Origin: a virus
Strand: one strand, 5' to 3'
DNA length: 20,140 nucleotides
IMG/VR virus record: IMGVR_UViG_3300007523_001587
Coordinates: 1 to 20,140 of that record
Positions 5,926 through 16,580 of the stretch are shown here, piece by piece; within the stretch, counting starts at the first letter, position 1; each line of letters begins with the position of its first letter. A program made the position numbers and the translations under genes. The notes under the pieces were generated by a model that did not search any database, was not told the origin of the DNA, and worked only from the letters and a program-made list of their open reading frames with translations.

Positions 5926-6378
5926 ATGTCTAAGCACATGTCATTAGAAGACAGGTTTTTCCAAAAGGTTCTTAAAACAGATTCTTGCTGGTTGTGGACC
6001 GGGGGTATTGCCACACAGGGATACGGTGTATTTAGGGTAGACGGCAAATCGGTTAGTGCCCATAGACATTCTTACAAAATCCACAAAGGAGAGATACCGG
6101 ATGGGATGCATGTCTGTCACTCGTGTGATGTCAGAAATTGTGTAAATCCAGATCATTTATGGGTTGGAACCGCAACCGACAACATGCAGGATATGATTAA
6201 GAAGGGCAGACAGTGCGCAGCTAATAAAAAGCAGGAAAGGTGCAAGCACGGTCACTCCTTTGAAATAGATGGGCATCGTGTATATGTCTATAAGGGCAGG
6301 TCGTGGCGCATATGCCTTACGTGTAAAAAAGCTGCTAATAGATCGGCATCTCTTGCATGTTCTTCATCGCGTCCGTAG
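5926..6378 (+). CDS. HNH homing endonuclease
   Basis: A 150-residue protein of the HNH_3 type common in phages. The N-terminal part has CWLWTGGIATQGYGVF and AHRHSYKIHKGEIP. The core is the nuclease: DGMHVCHSCDVRNCVNPDHLWVGTATDNMQDM, with His, Cys pairs, NCVNPDHL and the final Asn giving the metal-binding and catalytic set. A second Cys/His group (CKHGHSF, ICLTCKKAANR) is likely a DNA-binding zinc element. Such enzymes cut a target lacking the gene and spread by repair. It lies between a broken tRNA-like fragment and tRNA-Arg, and its TAG stop (6376-6378) is made of bases 8-10 of that tRNA. The next in-frame ATG is at 5938. Confidence 0.88.
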   Translation: MSKHMSLEDRFFQKVLKTDSCWLWTGGIATQGYGVFRVDGKSVSAHRHSYKIHKGEIPDGMHVCHSCDVRNCVNPDHLWVGTATDNMQDMIKKGRQCAANKKQERCKHGHSFEIDGHRVYVYKGRSWRICLTCKKAANRSASLACSSSRP

Positions 6379-6441
6379 CTCAGTGGATAGAGCAGCAGGT
6401 TTCTACCCTGCGTGTCGGGGGTTCGATTCCCTTCGGGCGCA
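6369..6441 (+). tRNA. tRNA-Arg (anticodon TCT)
   Basis: Acceptor GCGTCCG pairs with CGGGCGC, followed by A73. TAGCTCAG D-arm, anticodon stem GCAGG/CCTGC with loop TTTCTAC, and T-arm loop TTCGATT with two wobble pairs. No CCA is encoded. The HNH gene overlaps its first ten bases. Confidence 0.9.
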
Positions 6442-6447
6442 CGATAA

Positions 6448-7169
6448 TGATATAGTTCATATATGGCCTGCGTGTATGCGTTATCCTCGTCTCTCGCTCC
6501 AGATATAGTGCGTTATGTCGGTCGTTCTAAATTGGATACCGCCGGAAATAGGTTGGGTAAACATCTATTCCTGGCTCGGAATAGTCAAAATTTAGGTCAT
6601 AAAAATAATTGGATTAGGAGTGTTCTCAAACAAGGAGGCTCAATAGTGAGTTTGGTTTTAGAATCTGGGCTTTCATGGGGGGAGTCTGGCCAAAGAGAGA
6701 TTTTCCATATTGCTCATTATAAAAGTGTCGGGTATGATTTAACAAATATGACAGACGGTGGTGATGGCGTCATTGGATTCATTCATTCTGTTGAAGCACG
6801 TGCGAAAATGAGTGCCGCAAATTTAGGGAGAGTACATTCGCTTGAACATCGGGCAAAAATTAGAGTCGCACAATTGGGGAATAAGCGCTCGCCAGAAACC
6901 AGAGCTAAAATAAGCGCCGCAGGATTGGGGAGAGTACAGTCGCCTGAGCATCGGACAAAAATTGGGGCTGGGCATTTAGGGATAAAGCCCTCGCTGGAAG
7001 CTAGGGCCAAAATGAGTGCTGCGGGATTGGGGAAACCAAAGTCACCAGAGCATCGGGCAAAAATAGGCGCAGCGCACAAGGGGAGAGTATTATCTCCTGA
7101 ACACAGGGCGAAAATAAGTGCCACCCTGCGAAATAGATATAGGATCAGTACGTCTTCTCTGATATAGTT
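6448..7169 (+). repeat. Direct repeat TGATATAGTT flanking the GIY-YIG gene
   Basis: TGATATAGTT occurs at 6448-6457, just before the gene, and at 7160-7169, over its stop codon. A third nine-base copy, TGATATAGT, is at 7268-7276 before tRNA-Trp. All lie in gaps between tRNAs, so the repeat may mark an insertion or be a spacer common to the tRNA cluster. Confidence 0.55.
6463..7167 (+). CDS. GIY-YIG homing endonuclease with seven NUMOD3-type repeats
   Basis: A 234-residue protein. Residues 1-100 fit a GIY-YIG nuclease: VYALSS near the start, IVRYVGRSKLDTAGNRLGKHL with the catalytic-type Arg, and a Glu in QREIFHIAHYKSVGYDLTNMTDGGDG. Residues 108-226 are seven repeats of 17 residues (S-x-E-x-RAKxSAAxLG), the NUMOD3 DNA-binding module. 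At DNA level this is a 51-base tandem repeat, 6784-7140. Free-standing enzymes of this kind spread between phages by cutting alleles that lack them. It separates tRNA-Arg from tRNA-Ser. Seven modules is long for the family. The start is the first ATG; no strong ribosome site is seen. Confidence 0.85.
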   Translation: MACVYALSSSLAPDIVRYVGRSKLDTAGNRLGKHLFLARNSQNLGHKNNWIRSVLKQGGSIVSLVLESGLSWGESGQREIFHIAHYKSVGYDLTNMTDGGDGVIGFIHSVEARAKMSAANLGRVHSLEHRAKIRVAQLGNKRSPETRAKISAAGLGRVQSPEHRTKIGAGHLGIKPSLEARAKMSAAGLGKPKSPEHRAKIGAAHKGRVLSPEHRAKISATLRNRYRISTSSLI

Positions 7170-7175
7170 AAAAAT

Positions 7176-7261
7176 GGAACGGTGACCGAGTGGTTTAAGG
7201 TACTGCCTTGCTAAGGCAACGGGCTAGCGCCCCGTGGGTTCAAATCCCACTCGTTCCTCCA
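7176..7261 (+). tRNA. tRNA-Ser (anticodon GCT)
   Basis: Acceptor GGAACGG pairs with TCGTTCC, anticodon loop TTGCTAA, long variable arm (ACGGG...CCCGT) as expected for Ser, T-arm GTGGG-TTCAAAT-CCCAC. CCA is encoded at 7259-7261. Confidence 0.9.
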
Positions 7262-7282
7262 ATTTACTGATATAGTGAATGC

Positions 7283-7357
7283 ATCGGTGTAGTTCAACGG
7301 TAGAACGGCAGCTTCCAAAACTGCGCGTCGGGGGTTCGACTCCTCTCATCGGTGCCA
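7283..7357 (+). tRNA. tRNA-Trp (anticodon CCA)
   Basis: Acceptor ATCGGTG pairs with CATCGGT, then G73 and encoded CCA. D-arm GTTCAACGGTAGAAC, anticodon loop TTCCAAA, T-loop TTCGACT. Confidence 0.88.
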
Positions 7358-7423
7358 GAACGTATAGGTGGCTATCCCTCTCGGGGCACTCGTAGGGGTT
7401 GGGTTCGATTCCCATTACATTCA
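7358..7423 (+). pseudogene. Degenerate tRNA-like sequence
   Basis: GAACGTA and TACATTC could pair as an acceptor (one mismatch), and GGGTTCGATTCCC is a good T-arm. At 66 bases it is too short, and no five-base anticodon stem can be drawn between them. Probably a decayed tRNA; alternatively an unrelated T-arm-like element. Confidence 0.35.
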
Positions 7424-7428
7424 CGGAC

Positions 7429-7484
7429 GGGTGGGGGGTGCGGTGCCCGAGGAGGGTGTCGGTCTAGACCCCCCTACCCCACCC
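7429..7484 (+). other. G-rich/C-rich inverted repeat between tRNAs
   Basis: GGGTGGGG at 7429-7436 is complementary to CCCCACCC at 7477-7484, with the palindrome GTCTAGAC inside. The T-rich stretch after it is weak, so terminator activity is uncertain. The G runs could also form a quadruplex. Confidence 0.4.
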
Positions 7485-7522
7485 CAAGTTGTTATTATCT
7501 CCTCTTGGTGTTATGCTGATAG

Positions 7523-7594
7523 AGCGGAATAGAACATTGGTAGTTCGCCGGGCTCATAACTCGGATGTAGTGGGTCCGATTCCCACTTCCGCCA
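7523..7594 (+). tRNA. tRNA-Met (anticodon CAT)
   Basis: Acceptor AGCGGAA with TTCCGCC pairs at positions 2-7, but the first pair is A-C. Anticodon stem CCGGG/CTCGG with loop CTCATAA; T-arm GTGGG-TCCGATT-CCCAC; A73. An open first pair is a hallmark of bacterial initiator tRNAs, so initiator or elongator identity is open; a CAT anticodon modified to read Ile is also possible. Confidence 0.85.
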
Positions 7595-7598
7595 CTAA

Positions 7599-7671
7599 GT
7601 CAGGGTAGTTCAATGGACGAGAATGCTAGTTTACGGAACTAGCGATGGGGGTTCGACTCCCTCTCTTGACA
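7599..7671 (+). tRNA. tRNA-Arg (anticodon ACG)
   Basis: Acceptor GTCAGGG pairs with TCTTGAC (wobbles allowed), A73. Anticodon stem CTAGT/ACTAG with loop TTACGGA. A34 would be deaminated to inosine in the host. T-arm GGGGG-TTCGACT-CCCTC. Confidence 0.87.
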
Positions 7672-7681
7672 CGAAAAATAA

Positions 7682-7754
7682 CGGAGTGTAGCGCAGTTGG
7701 CAGCGCGCCTGGTTTGGGACCAGGAGGCCGGTGGTTCGAGACCACCCACCCCGA
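7682..7754 (+). tRNA. tRNA-Pro (anticodon TGG)
   Basis: Acceptor CGGAGTG pairs with CACCCCG with one mismatch, A73. Anticodon stem CCTGG/CCAGG with loop TTTGGGA; T-arm GGTGG-TTCGAGA-CCACC. Confidence 0.88.
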
Positions 7755-7759
7755 CGTAT

Positions 7760-7830
7760 GTGGCTGTAGTCCAATGGCAGAACGCGGGGTTGTGGTCCCC
7801 GTCACGTAGGTTCGATTCCTACTGGTCACC
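7760..7830 (+). tRNA. tRNA-His (anticodon GTG)
   Basis: Acceptor GTGGCTG pairs with TGGTCAC, followed by C73, the discriminator expected for His. Anticodon stem CGGGG/CCCCG with loop TTGTGGT. The base before position 1 is T, so the usual encoded G at -1 is not obvious. Confidence 0.85.
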
Positions 7831-7834
7831 CAAA

Positions 7835-7907
7835 CGGCGTGTAGCTCAAACGGCAGAGCATCTGTGTGAAGTGCAGAGGGTTGGTGGTTCGACTCCATCC
7901 GCGTCGG
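7835..7907 (+). tRNA. tRNA-Phe (anticodon GAA)
   Basis: Acceptor CGGCGTG pairs with CGCGTCG. Anticodon stem TCTGT/GCAGA with loop GTGAAGT; T-arm GGTGG-TTCGACT-CCATC. The discriminator is G rather than the usual A, so identity is slightly less certain. Confidence 0.78.
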
Positions 7908-7935
7908 CGTTACAATCTATACGTATACTATTTAT

Positions 7936-8008
7936 GCCCGTGGACCTGGTTGGGACTAGGACCTCACTTGTAATGAGGACACAGGAGGTCCGAATCCTCT
8001 CGCGGGCT
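7936..8008 (+). tRNA. tRNA-Thr (anticodon TGT)
   Basis: Acceptor GCCCGTG pairs with CGCGGGC. Anticodon stem CCTCA/TGAGG with loop CTTGTAA; T-arm GGAGG-TCCGAAT-CCTCT; discriminator T. Confidence 0.87.
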
Positions 8009-8014
8009 CAAGGA

Positions 8015-8132
8015 GGTGCGGCATGCGCGTCGCACCGACTAGGAGTACCAGCCGGTGATTGGTTTTCCCGCTAAAGTCGCCATACTCCCGCGCAAGGGAT
8101 GCTGTGGATATGCGGGCACTGGCTGGTATTCC
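8015..8132 (+). ncRNA. Unidentified structured element within the tRNA cluster
   Basis: A small hairpin (GGTGCG 8015-8020 with CGCACC 8031-8036) precedes a long element: 8042-8057 pairs with 8117-8132 over 16 positions with two G-U pairs, both valid on the + strand. Inside, CCCGC 8067-8071 pairs with GCGGG 8112-8116, enclosing TCCC 8086-8089 with GGGA 8096-8099. It has no anticodon or T-loop sequence, so it is not a tRNA. It lies between tRNA-Thr and tRNA-Gly and would be in the same transcript. Function unknown. Confidence 0.6.
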
Positions 8133-8139
8133 AAATTTT

Positions 8140-8214
8140 GCATCATTAACTCATCGTTGGTAGAGTGTCAGTTTTCCAAACTGAATGCGGTCAGTTCAAG
8201 CCTGACATGATGCT
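8140..8214 (+). tRNA. tRNA-Gly (anticodon TCC)
   Basis: Acceptor GCATCAT pairs fully with ATGATGC, with T73 as expected for Gly. Anticodon stem TCAGT/ACTGA with loop TTTCCAA; T-arm GTCAG-TTCAAGC-CTGAC. Confidence 0.9.
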
Positions 8215-8289: not shown

Positions 8290-10245
8290 TTATATATTAT
8301 CAAGCCCGCGGCGCAATAGACCCAACATGAGTTCTCCTTGTGCGTATTCCTCCTCTTCTTCACCGAAAGATCCCTCAATCGCAACCGTAGTGACGCGACG
8401 CTTGCTTTTGATTAGCCGAAGTATGTCTTCATCAATAGTCCCAGAAGCTATCCCGTAGGTCACCATCACTGATCCTTTCTGACCGAGCCTGTGACAACGA
8501 GAGTACAGCTGGTCAACATCTGCTGGCGTCCACGGCAGTTCAACAAAGAGCACCTTTTGGGCGGCTGTTAGAGTGTGCCCGGTTTTGGCAGCCTGGATCG
8601 ACAGAACAATGACTGGAGCATCCTCTATTGATAATTCCTGGAAGTCCTTCTTTGCTTGTTCCACGGCGTCCACCTTCATCCCGCCCTGAATCTTTAAACC
8701 GCCAAACGTATTAGCAAGCATGTCAACGATGTCACGATGGTGGGCGGCGATTACAACCTTTTCACCCGCATCTATCTGAGATTGAACCCATTCTTTCACG
8801 GACCCCATTTTTGCTTTTGCCGCCAAGCGACGTAGCACAGAAAGACGGACTAAGTGCTCGTTTGATTCAGTCTTGAACCGGGAAACCACGGCAGCCGAAT
8901 GGGGGGACTTACCTAATTCTAAAGCGATAGCTTTTGCCCGTAGCACCAAGAATTCAACTATGTCATCTTCTGCCTTTTTGTATTCCTCCATTGCTTTATC
9001 GGATATTTGAATCATGAAAGTATCGTGCAGTACGTCTGGTAGTTCTTTTAAAACATGTTTCTTTGTGCGCCTGATGTAACAGTTAGAACGCAGGGTTTCG
9101 TTTAGCTCCTCTAGGTTTGTCGCTCCAGAGATATTCCAGTGCCCCCACTTGTCTTTGAATGCGCCACAGTACCGGCGATAAAAGCCCCATGTGCCGCCAA
9201 GATCATTTAACCGACCGATTACCTCCAATTGGCTTGCGTATTCGGCCGGACGATTTGTGACCGGCGTCCCCGTTAGACACAGAACAAGACCACCCGTGAC
9301 TGTTTTCGCGATCTTTAGTGCAGCTTTCGTGCGTAATGCGGTTGGAGTCTTAAGAAAATGTGACTCATCACAAATTAGAGACTTGTAACCTTTAATCGCT
9401 TTCGCCCAGTGGCCTATGTTGGAGTACCCGATAATCATGAAGTCGTGTGGCGATTCACCCAACAGGGGTAATGTTGAACGATCCAGTGTCACAGCCACGC
9501 TCCGATGTGGCGCCCACTTACTCACTTCGTTTTTCCAATTAAGAATAAGATTCGGCGGGCATATGACTATTGCCGGGTATACGGATTGACCCAGTGACGT
9601 ACAGTATTCAAGGGATGCAATTGCCTGTAATGTCTTGCCAAGACCCATGTCGTCGGCGATGAAGCAACGCCTGGCCTCAGCGACATACGCCACGCCGGCC
9701 GCCTGATAAGGCAATAGCTGACCGGAGATTGTCGGTATTGATAGCGATGCACTACTAGCCCGTGATGCATCTGCACGCTCTCTGCCGGTGGAGACAACCA
9801 CATCAGACTCAATGCGGAGTTCGGGTGGAATTTCCATTTTGAACATTGTGGCCCATCGGATTGCCTCTTGAATCGCCGTTTTGGGTATCCTCCATGCCTT
9901 GGATGGTGGATGCCAGGTAGCGCCGGGTATTGTTTTAACGGACCTGACCTTAACTGGGTCGTAGTTAAACCCAAGATATATGAATGATTCGTCGTGGGTC
10001 ATCCCTGCTGCTTTATTGAGTTTTTTGGGAAGATCAAACGTTAAAACGCTATTGTCTATTACGAAATCGTGTTTTATGGCGAACTCGCGGACTTCACCAA
10101 TGCTGGTGGCCGGAGCTTTCCATACCTTGTTAACCTTGTCCCACTTGGCGCCCTGTATCTGTTTAATTATGTGCACCTCGTCGCTACTAAACGGAAAATC
10201 AAGTATTAATTCATCGTTGTGTAGCCACAGGGTTTTATTGCTCAA
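8290..10245 (-). CDS. SNF2-family DNA helicase/translocase with HARP-like N-terminus
   Basis: A 651-residue superfamily 2 ATPase that moves along or remodels DNA. The N-terminus has two repeats of the form F-x-x-x-V-x-x-I-x-G-A-x-W-x-x-x-x-K-x-W-x-x-P (residues about 16-45 and 92-121), like the HARP module of SMARCAL1-type annealing helicases. The motor shows Walker A DDMGLGKT (198-205), DESH as the Walker B box (293-296), LTGTPVTNR (from 324) and motif VI QLYSRCHRLGQ (579-589). The start is TTG at 10245, which overlaps the TGA of the upstream WhiB gene as TTGA and has GAGGAG just upstream. An earlier in-frame ATG at 10296 lies inside the WhiB gene and is unlikely. It probably acts at phage replication forks. 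Confidence 0.92.
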   Translation of the reverse strand: MSNKTLWLHNDELILDFPFSSDEVHIIKQIQGAKWDKVNKVWKAPATSIGEVREFAIKHDFVIDNSVLTFDLPKKLNKAAGMTHDESFIYLGFNYDPVKVRSVKTIPGATWHPPSKAWRIPKTAIQEAIRWATMFKMEIPPELRIESDVVVSTGRERADASRASSASLSIPTISGQLLPYQAAGVAYVAEARRCFIADDMGLGKTLQAIASLEYCTSLGQSVYPAIVICPPNLILNWKNEVSKWAPHRSVAVTLDRSTLPLLGESPHDFMIIGYSNIGHWAKAIKGYKSLICDESHFLKTPTALRTKAALKIAKTVTGGLVLCLTGTPVTNRPAEYASQLEVIGRLNDLGGTWGFYRRYCGAFKDKWGHWNISGATNLEELNETLRSNCYIRRTKKHVLKELPDVLHDTFMIQISDKAMEEYKKAEDDIVEFLVLRAKAIALELGKSPHSAAVVSRFKTESNEHLVRLSVLRRLAAKAKMGSVKEWVQSQIDAGEKVVIAAHHRDIVDMLANTFGGLKIQGGMKVDAVEQAKKDFQELSIEDAPVIVLSIQAAKTGHTLTAAQKVLFVELPWTPADVDQLYSRCHRLGQKGSVMVTYGIASGTIDEDILRLIKSKRRVTTVAIEGSFGEEEEEYAQGELMLGLLRRGLDNI

Positions 10246-10472
10246 CGCAGACTCCTCACAATGACTTTGCGCTCGTCTTCTGTCTTCCCGCCCCAAATCC
10301 CAAATTGGATTTCATTGTCGATTGCATATTGAAGGCACTCTGTTGATACTGGGCACACCATACAGTACGACAGTGCGGTGCGCTTTTGTTTACCCGTGCG
10401 CGGGAAAAAGAGTTTCATGTCTTGGTCGATACATGCACGCAGTTCGCGCCATGCTTGTAATACGTAGTTCAT
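10242..10472 (-). CDS. WhiB-family iron-sulphur transcription factor
   Basis: A 76-residue WhiB-like protein. Four Cys sit in the family pattern (RACIDQD, then SYCMVCPVSTECLQYA), binding a 4Fe-4S cluster, followed by the GIWGG turn and a short basic tail (ERKVIVRSLR) that would contact DNA. WhiB proteins bind the primary sigma factor in actinobacteria and alter promoter choice; phage copies are known to interfere with host WhiB function. The start ATG at 10472 has GGGGAG directly upstream. Its stop overlaps the helicase start, so both are probably expressed from one message. Confidence 0.92.
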   Translation of the reverse strand: MNYVLQAWRELRACIDQDMKLFFPRTGKQKRTALSYCMVCPVSTECLQYAIDNEIQFGIWGGKTEDERKVIVRSLR

Positions 10473-12889: not shown

Positions 12890-13444
12890 ATGAGTGAGCA
12901 TTACGCAGATGACAACCCGTGGGACGATGCTGACCAATACCCCGAGAGTGCCGGGTATGGGAGCAACTACGAGTCATACGAATACGAAGGTCAAATTGAC
13001 GACCCCGTAGCAGTTGCGCAAATCTCAAATTATGCGGATGAGATCGGCGTGTATTGTGCAATGATTTCTGAACGCGAATTTATTGGCGCGATTGATGAAT
13101 TAAAGACGAGCGAGGGAGAGTCTGGCGTTCTCAAGATGGTTTTCGCAATCGAGCAGGTTACGGGTTGGCATTTAGAAATAATGGGCTCACGATCTCAAGT
13201 AGACGATATATTAATGAGTAGATACAATAAGTTCGATCCAAATGCATGGGACCGAATAAGAAATAGCGATCAGTGGCAGGACGCAATTTATCAGGCATCG
13301 CACGTCATGGATAAATTTGTTAGTGACGCAACCCGTATATACATAATGGGGTCGATGCCCTCATCCAAGATACGAGCCTCCGTCAGAAAGTTTTTATGGT
13401 CTTTTTGGTCTGCGCTTGACGAACGGATGTCACGCAACGTATAG
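12890..13444 (+). CDS. Acidic hypothetical protein
   Basis: A 184-residue protein. The first 45 residues are very acidic and rich in Tyr, Gly and Ser (DDNPWDDADQYPES) and probably disordered. The rest looks helical, with GVLKMVFAIEQVTGWHLEIMGS and a C-terminal IRASVRKFLWSFWSALDERMS. No family recognised. The ATG has TCGGAG six bases upstream. It lies 15 bases after the DUF932 gene and its stop overlaps the start of the WhiB gene, so all are probably co-transcribed. Confidence 0.75.
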   Translation: MSEHYADDNPWDDADQYPESAGYGSNYESYEYEGQIDDPVAVAQISNYADEIGVYCAMISEREFIGAIDELKTSEGESGVLKMVFAIEQVTGWHLEIMGSRSQVDDILMSRYNKFDPNAWDRIRNSDQWQDAIYQASHVMDKFVSDATRIYIMGSMPSSKIRASVRKFLWSFWSALDERMSRNV

Positions 13445-13815
13445 TGATCGACATGACAATTCAGGATCAGGATGTTGCCGTAGCCCGTCGCCAGCGAATG
13501 AAGTATCGGCACCTTGATACGGATGGTCCACCAAAGCCCCCATCTGGCGGTGCATGCGTAAACACGCCGACGGATTTATTTTTTCCTGGCCCGAATGGAA
13601 ACATCGGGGACCGGCTCAAGATAAAGGAAGCTAAAAAGATTTGTGCACAGTGTCGCGTGCAGACGCAATGTTTGGTTTATGCCCTTGAATGGGAACCTTA
13701 CGGTATCTGGGGTGGTCATACCGAGAGCCAGCGTATTTATTTGCGTCGTAAGTTACAAGTAACATCCCGTCGTTCCGACGAGGCCGTCCGTCTCAATAAT
13801 CTCATGGAGCTATAA
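13444..13815 (+). CDS. Second WhiB-family protein
   Basis: A 123-residue WhiB-like protein. The Cys set is GGACVNTPTDLFFPGPNGN, then KKICAQCRVQTQCLVYALEWEPYGIWGG, so the four cluster ligands and the GIWGG turn are present. It has an N-terminal extension of about 35 residues and a basic C-terminal tail (QRIYLRRKLQVTSRRSD), making it longer than the WhiB at 10242. The FPG and EAKKIC spacing is closer to classical host WhiB than the other copy. The start is GTG at 13444, overlapping the previous stop; ATG at 13453 is an alternative. Its stop overlaps the primase start (TAATG). Confidence 0.92.
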   Translation: MIDMTIQDQDVAVARRQRMKYRHLDTDGPPKPPSGGACVNTPTDLFFPGPNGNIGDRLKIKEAKKICAQCRVQTQCLVYALEWEPYGIWGGHTESQRIYLRRKLQVTSRRSDEAVRLNNLMEL

Positions 13816-16580
13816 TGTCCGGTGTCCCATCCGCAACAGTTAGTGACTTTCTATCGCGGTTACAAGGCGTCCGGCGGTCTGGCGATGAATGGCAGGCTCG
13901 TTGCCCGTGTCGCGACGATGACGAAAATCCATCGCTATCTATTGCGGAAGGCGAAGGCGGGAAGGTCATTGTCCATTGCCATCGGGGCAACCCGTGTAAT
14001 GCAAATCAGATATGCGACGCTCTGAACACCACGGTTCGCGAAGCTTTGTTTCCTAAGCAAGACAAGAATGACTGGGCTAATGGGGACAAGGGCAAAGCCC
14101 CTCAAAAGATTTTAACCAACACATATAAATACCACGATGCTGATGGTGTAGTTGTGTATGAGAAGTTGCGGTATAAAACATCAGACGGGAAGAAGACCTT
14201 CTCTCAGCGACGACCAGACGAGAATAAGGCTGGGGCATGGATCTATTCATTGGAGGGGATTCAAAGGGTACTTTATAAGCTCCCGGCAGTTCTCGCGGCC
14301 GTTAAGGCTAAGGAACCGGTCTGGGTGGTTGAGGGTGAAAAAGATGCAGATGTATTAATAGCCCGTGGCATCACGGCCACAACTGGCCCCGGCGGTGCTG
14401 GTCGTTCTAAATGGGACTCGCAATTTACTGCGGCATTGGCTGGCGCTCATGTTGAAATCATTGCAGACAAAGATGAAGTTGGAATAATGTTTGCAGTTGG
14501 CATCCATGAAGAGTTAGTTGAAGCGGGCTGTGTAGCAAATATCTGGCTTGCCGCTTCTGGCAAAGATACCTATGACCACTTTGCGGCCGGTCATGCTGTT
14601 GAAGATTTTGTTTTGTATGACCCGGCCGTTCTCGCCCTCCCGATTGAACCCGTGGAGATAAAAGAACAGAGCTCCAAGATTGAAACTGTGTTCCTTAAGA
14701 TAGAAGAGATTTTTGCAAGCGATAAGCTTTCCGATGAGCAAAAGTTAAACCGTGCATCTATCGCGATAAGTGCATCAGTTGTTACCAAGGTCGCAGATAC
14801 CGGGCGTCTTGTCAATTGGGAACAGTTTATATCCGAAACAGATGACGATAACTACGATTGGGTAATCCCCGGTTTGCTTGAGCGCAAAGAACGTGTGATT
14901 GTTGTGGCTTCGGAGGGGGTCGGCAAGCGTGCTATAATAAGTAGCGTGATACCCACTCCTTCTGGCTGGACGACACTTGGGGATGTGCGTGTTGGGGACC
15001 AAGTAATTGATAGGTTTGGTAATCCTTGTTCCGTTACCTACATCAGCCCTATAGAGAATAACCCCGATGCGTACCGGGTGACATTCTCTGATGGTAATCA
15101 TGTTGATGCCGATGCCGAACACCAGTGGTACACCGAGACACTGGATGAGAGGGAAAAGCGACGACTTGGTAAAGTCCGAACGACTCAGGAGATCAAGGCA
15201 ACATTGGGTTCGGGTCGTTCCAATAGGGCAGTCACACACGCTATCCCTACAACTAAACCGCTCTGTCTCCCCAGGGCGCAACTATCAATTCCGCCGTATA
15301 CCCTGGGGGCGTGGCTCGGAGATGGGACAACATTAAACGGTTCTATTTGTAGCGAAGATAATGGGGTACTTGAAAACATTCGCCAAGATGGATATGCCGT
15401 TCGCAAGCGCGAATCTACGACGAATATGTACGGCATTCTGGGCTTGCAGGTCCAATTGCGTGAACTCGGCTGCCTAGGACACAAGCACATACCCCTTGTT
15501 TACACCCGTGGCTCTTACGAGCAGCGACTTGCATTGGTTCAAGGTCTTATGGACACCGATGGTTATGTCGGCAAAAATGGGACATGTGAGTTTTCTGTTA
15601 ACAATGAAGTACTTGCCCGTGGTTTTCTTGATCTGATTCAAACATTAGGCATCAAGGTTACAATGAGAACAGGTTTGTCTAAACTTTATGGCAGAATCAC
15701 GGGGACTAGATACCGGATGTCATTCAAAACCGATCTTCCGGTATTTAGGTTAAAGCGGAAATTGGATCGGTTACCAACTGGTCTCCCTACGTCTCGTTCT
15801 CTGTATCGTTACATTATTTCAGTAGAGCCGATACCGCCAGCCCCAATGCGCTGTATCTCTGTTGATAGCCCTGATAACACCTATCTAATCGGAGACGCTT
15901 ATATCCCAACTCATAACACGATGCTTGCTCGCCAGGTGGCCATACTGTCGGCCGCCGGGATTAATCCATTCACTTATCAGGCGATGAAGCCCGTAGTGAC
16001 TTTAACGATCGACCTTGAAAACCCAGAACGAATCATCCGTCGTACATCTCGCAACATTATGAATGCCGCGATAGCAAGGACACAGCTTCTATCCGGAAAA
16101 CGGATTAGTGCAGTCGGTGCTCATCTACTGATAAAACCGGCCGGGATTGACCTAATAGGAACCGCTGATCGCGCCCATATAGAACAGATAGTAGATCAAA
16201 TACGTCCGGACATACTCCTACTCGGTCCCCTATATAAAGCCTTCGTTGATAGCGGAACCCGTACAAGCGAAGCTGTTGCTGTTGATGTGGCCAAGTATCT
16301 TGACTACATTCGCGACACTTATAATTGTGCATTGTGGCTCGAGCATCACGCCCCACTGGGTAACGCCAGCACGCGAGAGCTTCGTCCCTTTGGTTCCGCT
16401 GTGTGGTCTCGCTGGCCGGAGTTTGGCATATCTCTCAAGCCTGATCCCAGTGCATTAGGAGAATATGTCTATGATGTTGGCCATTTTCGTGGTGCACGTG
16501 ATGAGCGTGCCTGGCCGACTAAAATGCGTCGTGGGAAACTGTTTCCTTTTGAAGTGGTAGAATTTAGGAAGGTTGGGTAG
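13815..16580 (+). CDS. DNA primase/helicase (TOPRIM + RecA-like) containing an intein
   Basis: A 921-residue precursor, 591 residues after intein removal. The N-terminus has a CHC2-like zinc element (Cys30, Cys32, His54, Cys55, His56, Cys61 region). A TOPRIM domain follows, with EGEKD (173-177) and DKD (218-220), the acidic metal-binding residues for primer synthesis. The RecA-like ATPase starts with ERVIVVASEGVGK (Lys371) and, after the intein, continues TMLARQVAILSAAGINPF; joined, these give an intact Walker A (GVGKT). Later parts include ILLLGPLYK (Walker B-like), WLEHHAPLG and GSAVWSRWPEFGISLK. It would unwind and prime the phage DNA. The ATG has GGAGC upstream and overlaps the WhiB stop. 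Confidence 0.92.
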   Translation: MSGVPSATVSDFLSRLQGVRRSGDEWQARCPCRDDDENPSLSIAEGEGGKVIVHCHRGNPCNANQICDALNTTVREALFPKQDKNDWANGDKGKAPQKILTNTYKYHDADGVVVYEKLRYKTSDGKKTFSQRRPDENKAGAWIYSLEGIQRVLYKLPAVLAAVKAKEPVWVVEGEKDADVLIARGITATTGPGGAGRSKWDSQFTAALAGAHVEIIADKDEVGIMFAVGIHEELVEAGCVANIWLAASGKDTYDHFAAGHAVEDFVLYDPAVLALPIEPVEIKEQSSKIETVFLKIEEIFASDKLSDEQKLNRASIAISASVVTKVADTGRLVNWEQFISETDDDNYDWVIPGLLERKERVIVVASEGVGKRAIISSVIPTPSGWTTLGDVRVGDQVIDRFGNPCSVTYISPIENNPDAYRVTFSDGNHVDADAEHQWYTETLDEREKRRLGKVRTTQEIKATLGSGRSNRAVTHAIPTTKPLCLPRAQLSIPPYTLGAWLGDGTTLNGSICSEDNGVLENIRQDGYAVRKRESTTNMYGILGLQVQLRELGCLGHKHIPLVYTRGSYEQRLALVQGLMDTDGYVGKNGTCEFSVNNEVLARGFLDLIQTLGIKVTMRTGLSKLYGRITGTRYRMSFKTDLPVFRLKRKLDRLPTGLPTSRSLYRYIISVEPIPPAPMRCISVDSPDNTYLIGDAYIPTHNTMLARQVAILSAAGINPFTYQAMKPVVTLTIDLENPERIIRRTSRNIMNAAIARTQLLSGKRISAVGAHLLIKPAGIDLIGTADRAHIEQIVDQIRPDILLLGPLYKAFVDSGTRTSEAVAVDVAKYLDYIRDTYNCALWLEHHAPLGNASTRELRPFGSAVWSRWPEFGISLKPDPSALGEYVYDVGHFRGARDERAWPTKMRRGKLFPFEVVEFRKVG
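14928..15917 (+). mobile_element. Class 3-type intein with LAGLIDADG endonuclease
   Basis: A 330-residue intein (precursor residues 372-701) inserted between Lys371 and Thr702 of the Walker A loop. The N-terminal splicing block is VIPTPSGWTTLGDVRVGDQVID; the C-terminal end is RCISVDSPDNTYLIGDAYIPTHN. Position 1 is Arg (CGT), not Cys, Ser or Ala. The class 3 W-C-T set is present: Trp67 (EHQW), Cys309 (RCIS) and Thr328 (THN), so Cys309 can start splicing without residue 1. A DOD endonuclease lies in the middle, with LGAWLGDG (126-133) and LVQGLMDTDG (203-212) carrying the two acidic residues, so homing activity is plausible. Confidence 0.88.

Follow-up and report, generated by a model that had tools for sequence, protein, structure and literature searches.

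A class 3-type intein with arginine at position 1 in the Walker A loop of a phage primase-helicase

An intein interrupting the primase-helicase gene

The window analyzed here is a stretch of 20,140 nucleotides of viral DNA (IMG/VR virus record IMGVR_UViG_3300007523_001587, positions 1 to 20,140), and the element of interest is an intein with arginine as its first residue, lodged in a primase-helicase gene on the plus strand. The open reading frame (ORF) of this gene (13815-16580) codes for 921 amino acids, stays open across the insert, and combines a primase-like N-terminal half, an intein of 330 amino acids, and an AAA_25 helicase C-terminal half. The N-extein (13815-14927) matches PHROG 6088 'DNA primase' and 239 'DNA primase/helicase', and its translation ends with the first part of the Walker A motif (ASEGVGK, 14907-14927). 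The intein (14928-15917), delimited by its residues, homologues, fold and empty sites, is of class 3 by signature and carries a LAGLIDADG endonuclease domain; it begins RAIISSVIPTPSGW and finishes PMRCISVDSPDNTYLIGDAYIPTHN, and TMLARQ comes next. This is the start of the C-extein (15918-16577), which contains the AAA_25 domain (Pfam, E 2.3e-11) and whose Thr+1 is both the predicted splicing nucleophile and the Walker A threonine.

A search with the C-extein returned 599 candidate loci, of which the best 80 were inspected for empty sites. Intein-free relatives make up 79 of these 80 and read ...EGVGK|T... at the insertion point, the remaining one being a contig with the same intein. The insertion therefore lies between the Lys and the Thr of Walker A, the Arg is residue 1 of the intein, its assignment to the extein is ruled out, and the element is sporadic. 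The first-pass annotation, made from the sequence alone, had given Arg1 (CGT) at 14928-14930 together with Trp67, Cys309 and Thr328, all of which proved exact, and had held that Walker A is interrupted until splicing, a statement now backed by the empty relatives.

Class 3 residues and predicted fold

Class 3 inteins are distinguished by Trp at B:12, Cys at F:4 and Thr at G:5 (excerpts of PMC3196547 and PMC5222942). The intein of the window begins with Arg (codon CGT, 14928-14930), not with Cys, Ser or Thr. Its Trp67, Cys309 and Thr328 are invariant in the alignments A1 and A3 and are accompanied by a His at B:10, a terminal Asn and a Thr at +1. His65 (block B:10) and Trp67 (block B:12), at 15120-15128, bear the same numbers as His65 and Trp67 of Msm DnaB-1 (excerpts of PMC5222942); Cys309 (block F:4, 15852-15854) is the predicted initiating nucleophile, and Thr328 (G:5), His329 and Asn330 close the intein at 15909-15917. 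By sequence, the closest solved structures are the class 3 DnaB inteins 6bs8, 6rix and 6riy. A HINT fold is predicted as well: an AlphaFold model built from 23 sequences (mean pLDDT 92.6) was matched by Foldseek to the same three structures over the splicing domain, with a target TM of 0.82-0.89, and to PI-SceI over its full length. The Pfam intein-splicing model found no match in the record, which counts against the assignment, and class membership accordingly rests on residues, homologues and fold. The earlier proposal of a class 3 intein from its Trp-Cys-Thr set is thus borne out by signature and predicted fold; the alignment with known class 3 inteins that it had recommended as a check gave 6bs8, 6rix and 6riy as top matches in the Protein Data Bank (PDB), with the signature residues kept.

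The LAGLIDADG homing endonuclease domain occupies 15141-15803, bounds that are estimated and approximate, and is identified by Pfam (LAGLIDADG_3, E 5.8e-6) and by the PI-SceI fold match. Both motifs retain their acidic residues, Asp132 (LGAWLGDG) and Asp211 (LMDTDG), which do not vary among the nine sequences of alignment A1. The domain is presumably an active endonuclease.

Taken together, we consider it very likely that the phage primase-helicase is host to a class 3 intein that has a LAGLIDADG endonuclease domain and splits the Walker A loop between Lys and Thr. This intein would splice via Cys309, and its pocket around Arg1 would be co-adapted to that residue. By analogy with tested class 3 inteins, Cys309 would attack the Lys-Arg1 peptide bond, the N-extein would then be transferred to Thr+1, Asn330 would cyclize, and the two halves of the helicase would be joined as GVGK-TMLARQ, with Walker A restored. 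Arg1 is not a nucleophile, nor is one needed at position 1. A class 2 route, in which Thr+1 attacks the N-terminal junction directly, shares with class 2 inteins the lack of a nucleophile at position 1, but it is very improbable given that Cys309, Trp67 and Thr328 constitute the class 3 signature and that replacement of Cys F:4 by Ala abolished splicing in three tested class 3 inteins (excerpts of PMC5222942).

Arginine at position 1: inherited, rare and recurrent

Eight distinct inteins were found at the helicase site (that of the window, also L001, and those of L002-L005, L040, L041 and L043), the seven others being 60-78% identical to the intein of the window. All eight have Arg1, encoded by the same codon. 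In four comparisons, synonymous differences over the whole intein approach saturation (pS 0.76-0.83), so that Arg1 at this site must be old, and the splicing part is under purifying selection (dN 0.12-0.16 versus dS 1.5-3.2). These comparisons indicate that Arg1 is inherited and no defect. The CGT codon lies one base from TGT, as the first-pass annotation had remarked, which could evoke a degenerating class 1 intein that recently exchanged Cys1 for Arg and lost splicing. That explanation is hardly credible: a recent mutation is ruled out by the conservation of Arg1 across such divergent alleles, Arg1 recurs in other host proteins, the Trp-Cys-Thr set is complete, purifying selection acts on the splicing part, and an intein unable to leave Walker A would presumably ruin the helicase. 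In the same four comparisons, the alleles are more alike in the intein (72-78% identity) than in the C-extein (62-65%) or the N-extein (44-49%, 300 codons), a pattern that fits either lateral movement or stronger constraint.

To place Arg1 among class 3 inteins, position 1 was surveyed in a main set of 279 inteins (247 distinct) obtained from homology and pattern scans, a set that is enriched for relatives of the intein of the window and includes one scan aimed at Arg. Twenty pattern hits that had no recognizable C-terminus were dropped, seven of which had Arg in the place of position 1 (L023, L027, L028, L032 and L039, intein-like; L026 and L033, chance), as were L172 and L193 (stop or frameshift) and exact duplicates. 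Pattern-derived rows were required to have Cys309 and Asn330, whose invariance is therefore partly due to selection; His65 and Trp67 occur in 247 of 247 although neither was required. Position 1 is Ala in 176 inteins, Leu in 21, Gly in 13, Arg in 10, Met in 8, Gln in 6, Glu in 5, Pro in 4, and Ser and Asp in 2 each; the Arg share is inflated, because nine of the ten were found by homology to the intein of the window and one by the scan aimed at Arg. A scan that left residue 1 open and considered the N-terminus only gave, among the matches listed, 112 new loci with Ala (79), Leu (14), Gly (5), Gln (4), Met (4), Pro (2), Asp (2), Glu (1) or Cys (1) and none with Arg; at least two Arg1 loci already known (L022 and L023) came up again. 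Finally, a second set was collected by matching a pattern at the C-terminus, irrespective of residue 1. It gave 84 candidates in loci that were new; an N-block match was present in 67, of which 66 were resolved, and removal of duplicates and of those more than 80% identical to the first set left 61 inteins, one of them with Arg1. These figures uphold the earlier view that Arg is unusual even in class 3. No prior description of a class 3 intein with Arg1 was found in the excerpts consulted (PMC3196547, PMC5050341, PMC5222942, PMC6195587, PMC7664689 and PMC7891396) or in listings of further papers, and an earlier mention is possible.

Outside the helicase site, Arg1 was found in L006 (GTQGGK|R), in L037 (PESGK|R), at ASRQ[VI]GK|R sites in L023/L032 and L028 (fragment only), in one further ASRQIGK|R protein of the second set, and in the terminase intein of the isolated Rhodobacter phage RcKickapoo. 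The ORF of L032, on the reverse strand from 7886, is terminase-like, and its Arg1 mini-intein ends PTRN|ST, with Arg in place of the penultimate His; further on, the same ORF apparently holds a second, class 1-like intein. Cys or Ser at position 1 was also encountered together with the Trp-Cys-Thr set. Cys1 is found in three of the 61 inteins of the second set (loci L391-L474; QRAYNYWR|CLSIST, IKATQLGF|CLKLDT and IINMAPRH|CLTLDT), which may be intermediate between classes 1 and 3, and Ser1 in two rows of the first collection (L177 and L035).

Covariation of residue 1 with positions 307, 48 and 43

In the intein of the window, the residue at F:2, two positions before the catalytic Cys, is Met307 (15846-15848), and it covaries with residue 1. 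By mutual information weighted for sequence relatedness and corrected for background, 307 is the top partner of residue 1 (pair rank 10 of 47,586), and the pairs 48-307 and 43-307 rank second and third. Residue 62 is also one of the partners of residue 1; in Msm DnaBi1, Asp62 is close to Ala1 (excerpts of PMC6195587). Where residue 1 is small (A, G, P or S; 195 rows of the main set), 307 is Val or Thr in 183 and Cys48 is present in 166. Where it is long (52 rows), 307 is Met in 36, Val or Thr in 4 and another residue in 12, and Cys48 is present in 3.

Shared ancestry was taken into account with a quick tree built without the tested columns, which offered 9 independent contrasts on supported branches and 26 on all branches. 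Met at 307 changed in the same direction as residue 1 in 6.0 contrasts on average and in the opposite direction in 0.0 (median p 0.03), and the state 'not Val/Thr' at 307 in 6.8 to 0.0 (median p 0.016). Over 253 columns, 307 came first (6.6 to 0.0), and 48, 62 and 43 followed after two other columns considered below. The second set behaves alike: with a small residue 1 (44 rows), Val or Thr stands at 307 in 40 and Cys48 is present in 31, and with a long one (14 rows), Val or Thr stands at 307 in 2, Met in 6, and Cys48 is present in 2 (Fisher p 1.6e-7 for Val/Thr and 4e-4 for Cys48, relatedness being ignored). The three remaining rows have Cys1.

The side chain of Arg1 probably lies in a pocket whose lining would include residues such as 307, 48 and 43 and which would have co-adapted to a long residue. 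Several observations weigh against so simple a picture. By raw mutual information, position 43 stands above 307 as a partner of residue 1 (0.626 versus 0.513). In the tree test, columns 226 (5.4 to 0.2) and 12 (5.3 to 0.3), which have no obvious reason to covary, come directly after 307, so that the signal extends beyond the supposed pocket. Five inteins of the first set combine a small residue 1 with Met at 307, and the 12 long-residue rows with neither Met nor Val/Thr at 307 mostly pair Gly with Leu1. Finally, the second set contains an Arg1 terminase intein in which residue 48 is Cys and F:2 is Thr, so that Arg1 does not strictly depend on a co-adapted pocket. As for position 43, Glu43 is present in nine of the ten Arg1 rows and in RcKickapoo; an Arg1-Glu43 salt bridge is conceivable as a general rule, but Glu43 also occurs in 6 of 21 Leu1 rows and is absent from L037 and L032.

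Absence of the redox-switch cysteine

In Msm DnaBi1, an oxidant-induced disulfide between Cys48 and the catalytic Cys118 blocks splicing. Every Cys48 mutant tested (A, S, T, M, E, D and H) lost splicing, so that a catalytic and a redox-sensing role of Cys48 are inseparable in that intein, and its authors term Cys48 non-conserved and its role unclear (all from excerpts of PMC6195587). Residue 48 of the intein of the window aligns without gaps to this cysteine of 6bs8 and is Ala (15069-15071). Across the main set, 169 of 247 inteins have Cys48, and residue 1 is small in most of these; none of the ten Arg1 inteins has it, and the family of the window has Ala or Ser at 48 along with Arg1 and Met307. 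With Ala48, a DnaBi1-type redox switch cannot operate in the intein of the window. Provided they splice, the Arg1/Met307 inteins look like natural solutions without Cys48, and, as they carry accompanying changes, they open both Cys48 and position 1 to direct functional tests.

The absence of this cysteine also bears on the suggestion that conditional splicing gates the helicase and times phage replication, which had been put forward in the first-pass annotation and is a guess. The insertion in Walker A speaks for it, as does Msm DnaBi1, which sits at a P-loop and is inhibited by oxidation (excerpts of PMC6195587). Against it stand Ala48, the lack of any shared cysteine but the catalytic one in residues 1-70 and the last 37 residues of the eight alleles, and the 79 of the best 80 helicase relatives (among 599) that manage without the intein. 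Replication timing is therefore improbable.

A frozen 5' edge with a predicted hairpin

The first bases of the intein are conserved beyond their coding content. In codons 1-5 the third base is invariant in all eight alleles, though codons 3, 4 and 5 differ in residue; only 11 of 324 codons have an invariant third base, these five included, and a run this long arose in none of 20,000 shuffles. Arg1 is always CGT, a codon that accounts for 12-36% of Arg codons in the eight alleles, whereas each of the 16 remaining invariant arginines is encoded by 3 to 6 different codons. This frozen edge (14928-14948, plus strand) coincides with a predicted RNA hairpin of 7 pairs and a 7-base loop, within a larger predicted fold spanning 14916-14959. 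The hairpin forms in one register in the first 21 bases of seven of the eight alleles; L005 keeps 5 of the 7 pairs, with a shifted hairpin predicted. Three pairs vary, with pairing kept through G-U. When synonymous codons are resampled, pairing as extensive as that observed arises in 0.15 to 1.6% of draws, depending on the allele; when the hairpin partners are slid against each other, the paired share falls from 96% to 54% at best; and the 45-base segment at the junction ranks 1, 1, 1, 3, 3, 11, 27 and 204 by folding energy in the eight loci (among 421-522 segments each).

Other results do not favor a hairpin. No pair is altered on both sides among these eight related alleles, the folding of L002 is no better than that of its own shuffles (z +1.05), and the outer helix, which pairs Gly-Val-Gly codons with Pro-Thr-Pro codons, may be a coding coincidence. 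A column-shuffle control was non-discriminating, as 500 of 500 shuffles reached the observed values. Alternatively, the edge could be a DNA-binding site for the endonuclease or another protein, with no RNA hairpin involved. The exact conservation of the bases, their imperfect palindrome, and the lack of any pair changed on both sides are in keeping with such a site. Yet one arm position has G opposite T in seven of eight alleles, three other pairs change to G-U, which RNA tolerates and DNA does not, and only 3-6 of the 7 pairs are Watson-Crick in each allele, which makes a DNA site rather unlikely.

The codon of Arg1 is part of a conserved nucleotide element, perhaps an mRNA hairpin. Our tentative reading, held with less than even confidence, is that class 3 chemistry frees position 1 and so allows a conserved mRNA hairpin at the 5' edge of the intein, which would fix Arg1 as CGT and would influence translation or the fate of the mRNA, or be bound by the intein's own endonuclease, while the pocket co-adapted and the redox cysteine was dispensed with. 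If it holds up, the hairpin would represent a signal at the nucleotide level within an intein, of which no example appeared among the matches listed in a full-text search of open-licence PubMed Central papers.

Other roles for the edge were considered. A repeated operator is ruled out: a second copy of the frozen motif was found nowhere in the window, and its 22 matches in 480 loci are all copies of the helicase-site intein edge. Frozen first codons were not seen in two other groups of class 3 inteins (29 and 21 sequences), and Rfam at gathering thresholds reported nine tRNAs only. An internal sigma-70 promoter (TGCTATAAT in the window) was rejected, its key A being lost in two of eight alleles (L002 and L005), and a scan of 14700-16100 for promoter-like sites gave no excess over shuffles, either overall or at the edge. 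Ribosomal frameshifting or bypassing at the junction was also dropped, a bypass of 990 bases being implausible and GGN-AAR-CGT matching no slippery site known to us. The segment 14938-14944 (intein bases 11-17) holds TAR at 11-13 and TAG at 15-17, stops for both other frames. Such stops within the first 17 bases are found in all eight alleles by reading and in the six ungapped alleles by test; these six share four further stops of one frame elsewhere.

Closest known inteins

The Msm DnaB-1 intein (DnaBi1, 6bs8) likewise interrupts the P-loop of a replicative helicase, between ...GVGK and Ser/Thr. Its His65 and Trp67 are identically numbered, and Cys F:4, Thr G:5, the His-Asn end and the HINT fold, predicted for the intein of the window, are shared as well. 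DnaBi1 differs in having Ala1, Cys48 and Val at F:2, where the intein of the window has Arg1, Ala48 and Met, and in being a mini-intein, devoid of the endonuclease domain found here. The best match in a named phage is the intein of the DnaB-like helicase of Brevibacterium phage Rousseau (OV696622, L019; 44% identity), which occupies the same site (GEGAGK|...THN|T) in a related helicase but has Ala1, Cys48 and Val at F:2. The class 3 terminase intein of RcKickapoo (OP009274, L475) has the same unusual combination, with Arg1 after GGGK, Met at F:2, Ser48 and Glu43. Its host protein, annotated just 'terminase', is a different one, however, its identity is 39%, its Arg codon is CGG and its edge is not frozen. 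Over the whole length, endonuclease domain included, the fold is matched best by PI-SceI (the VMA1 intein; query TM 0.70-0.81 for the chains listed), a class 1 intein with Cys1 that is not known to have the Trp-Cys-Thr set.

Host and neighboring genes

The host of this phage is likely actinobacterial. Among 45 records of named phages with a related C-extein, 27 are from Gordonia phages, 16 from Arthrobacter, and one each from Brevibacterium and Pseudanabaena phages; related N-exteins are found chiefly in Arthrobacter and Streptomyces phages, and also in those of Salinibacter and Rhizobium. A WhiB-family gene (13444-13812) directly upstream of the primase-helicase gene fits such a host. Further upstream, two free-standing homing-type genes lie at 5926-6375 and 6463-7164 (HNH_3, E 2.1e-11; NUMOD3 / PHROG homing endonuclease), the nine tRNA genes detected by Rfam lie at 6369-8214, the first of them between these two genes, and an SNF2-type helicase gene (8290-10296, E 1.6e-29) is carried by the minus strand, opposite to the primase-helicase gene.

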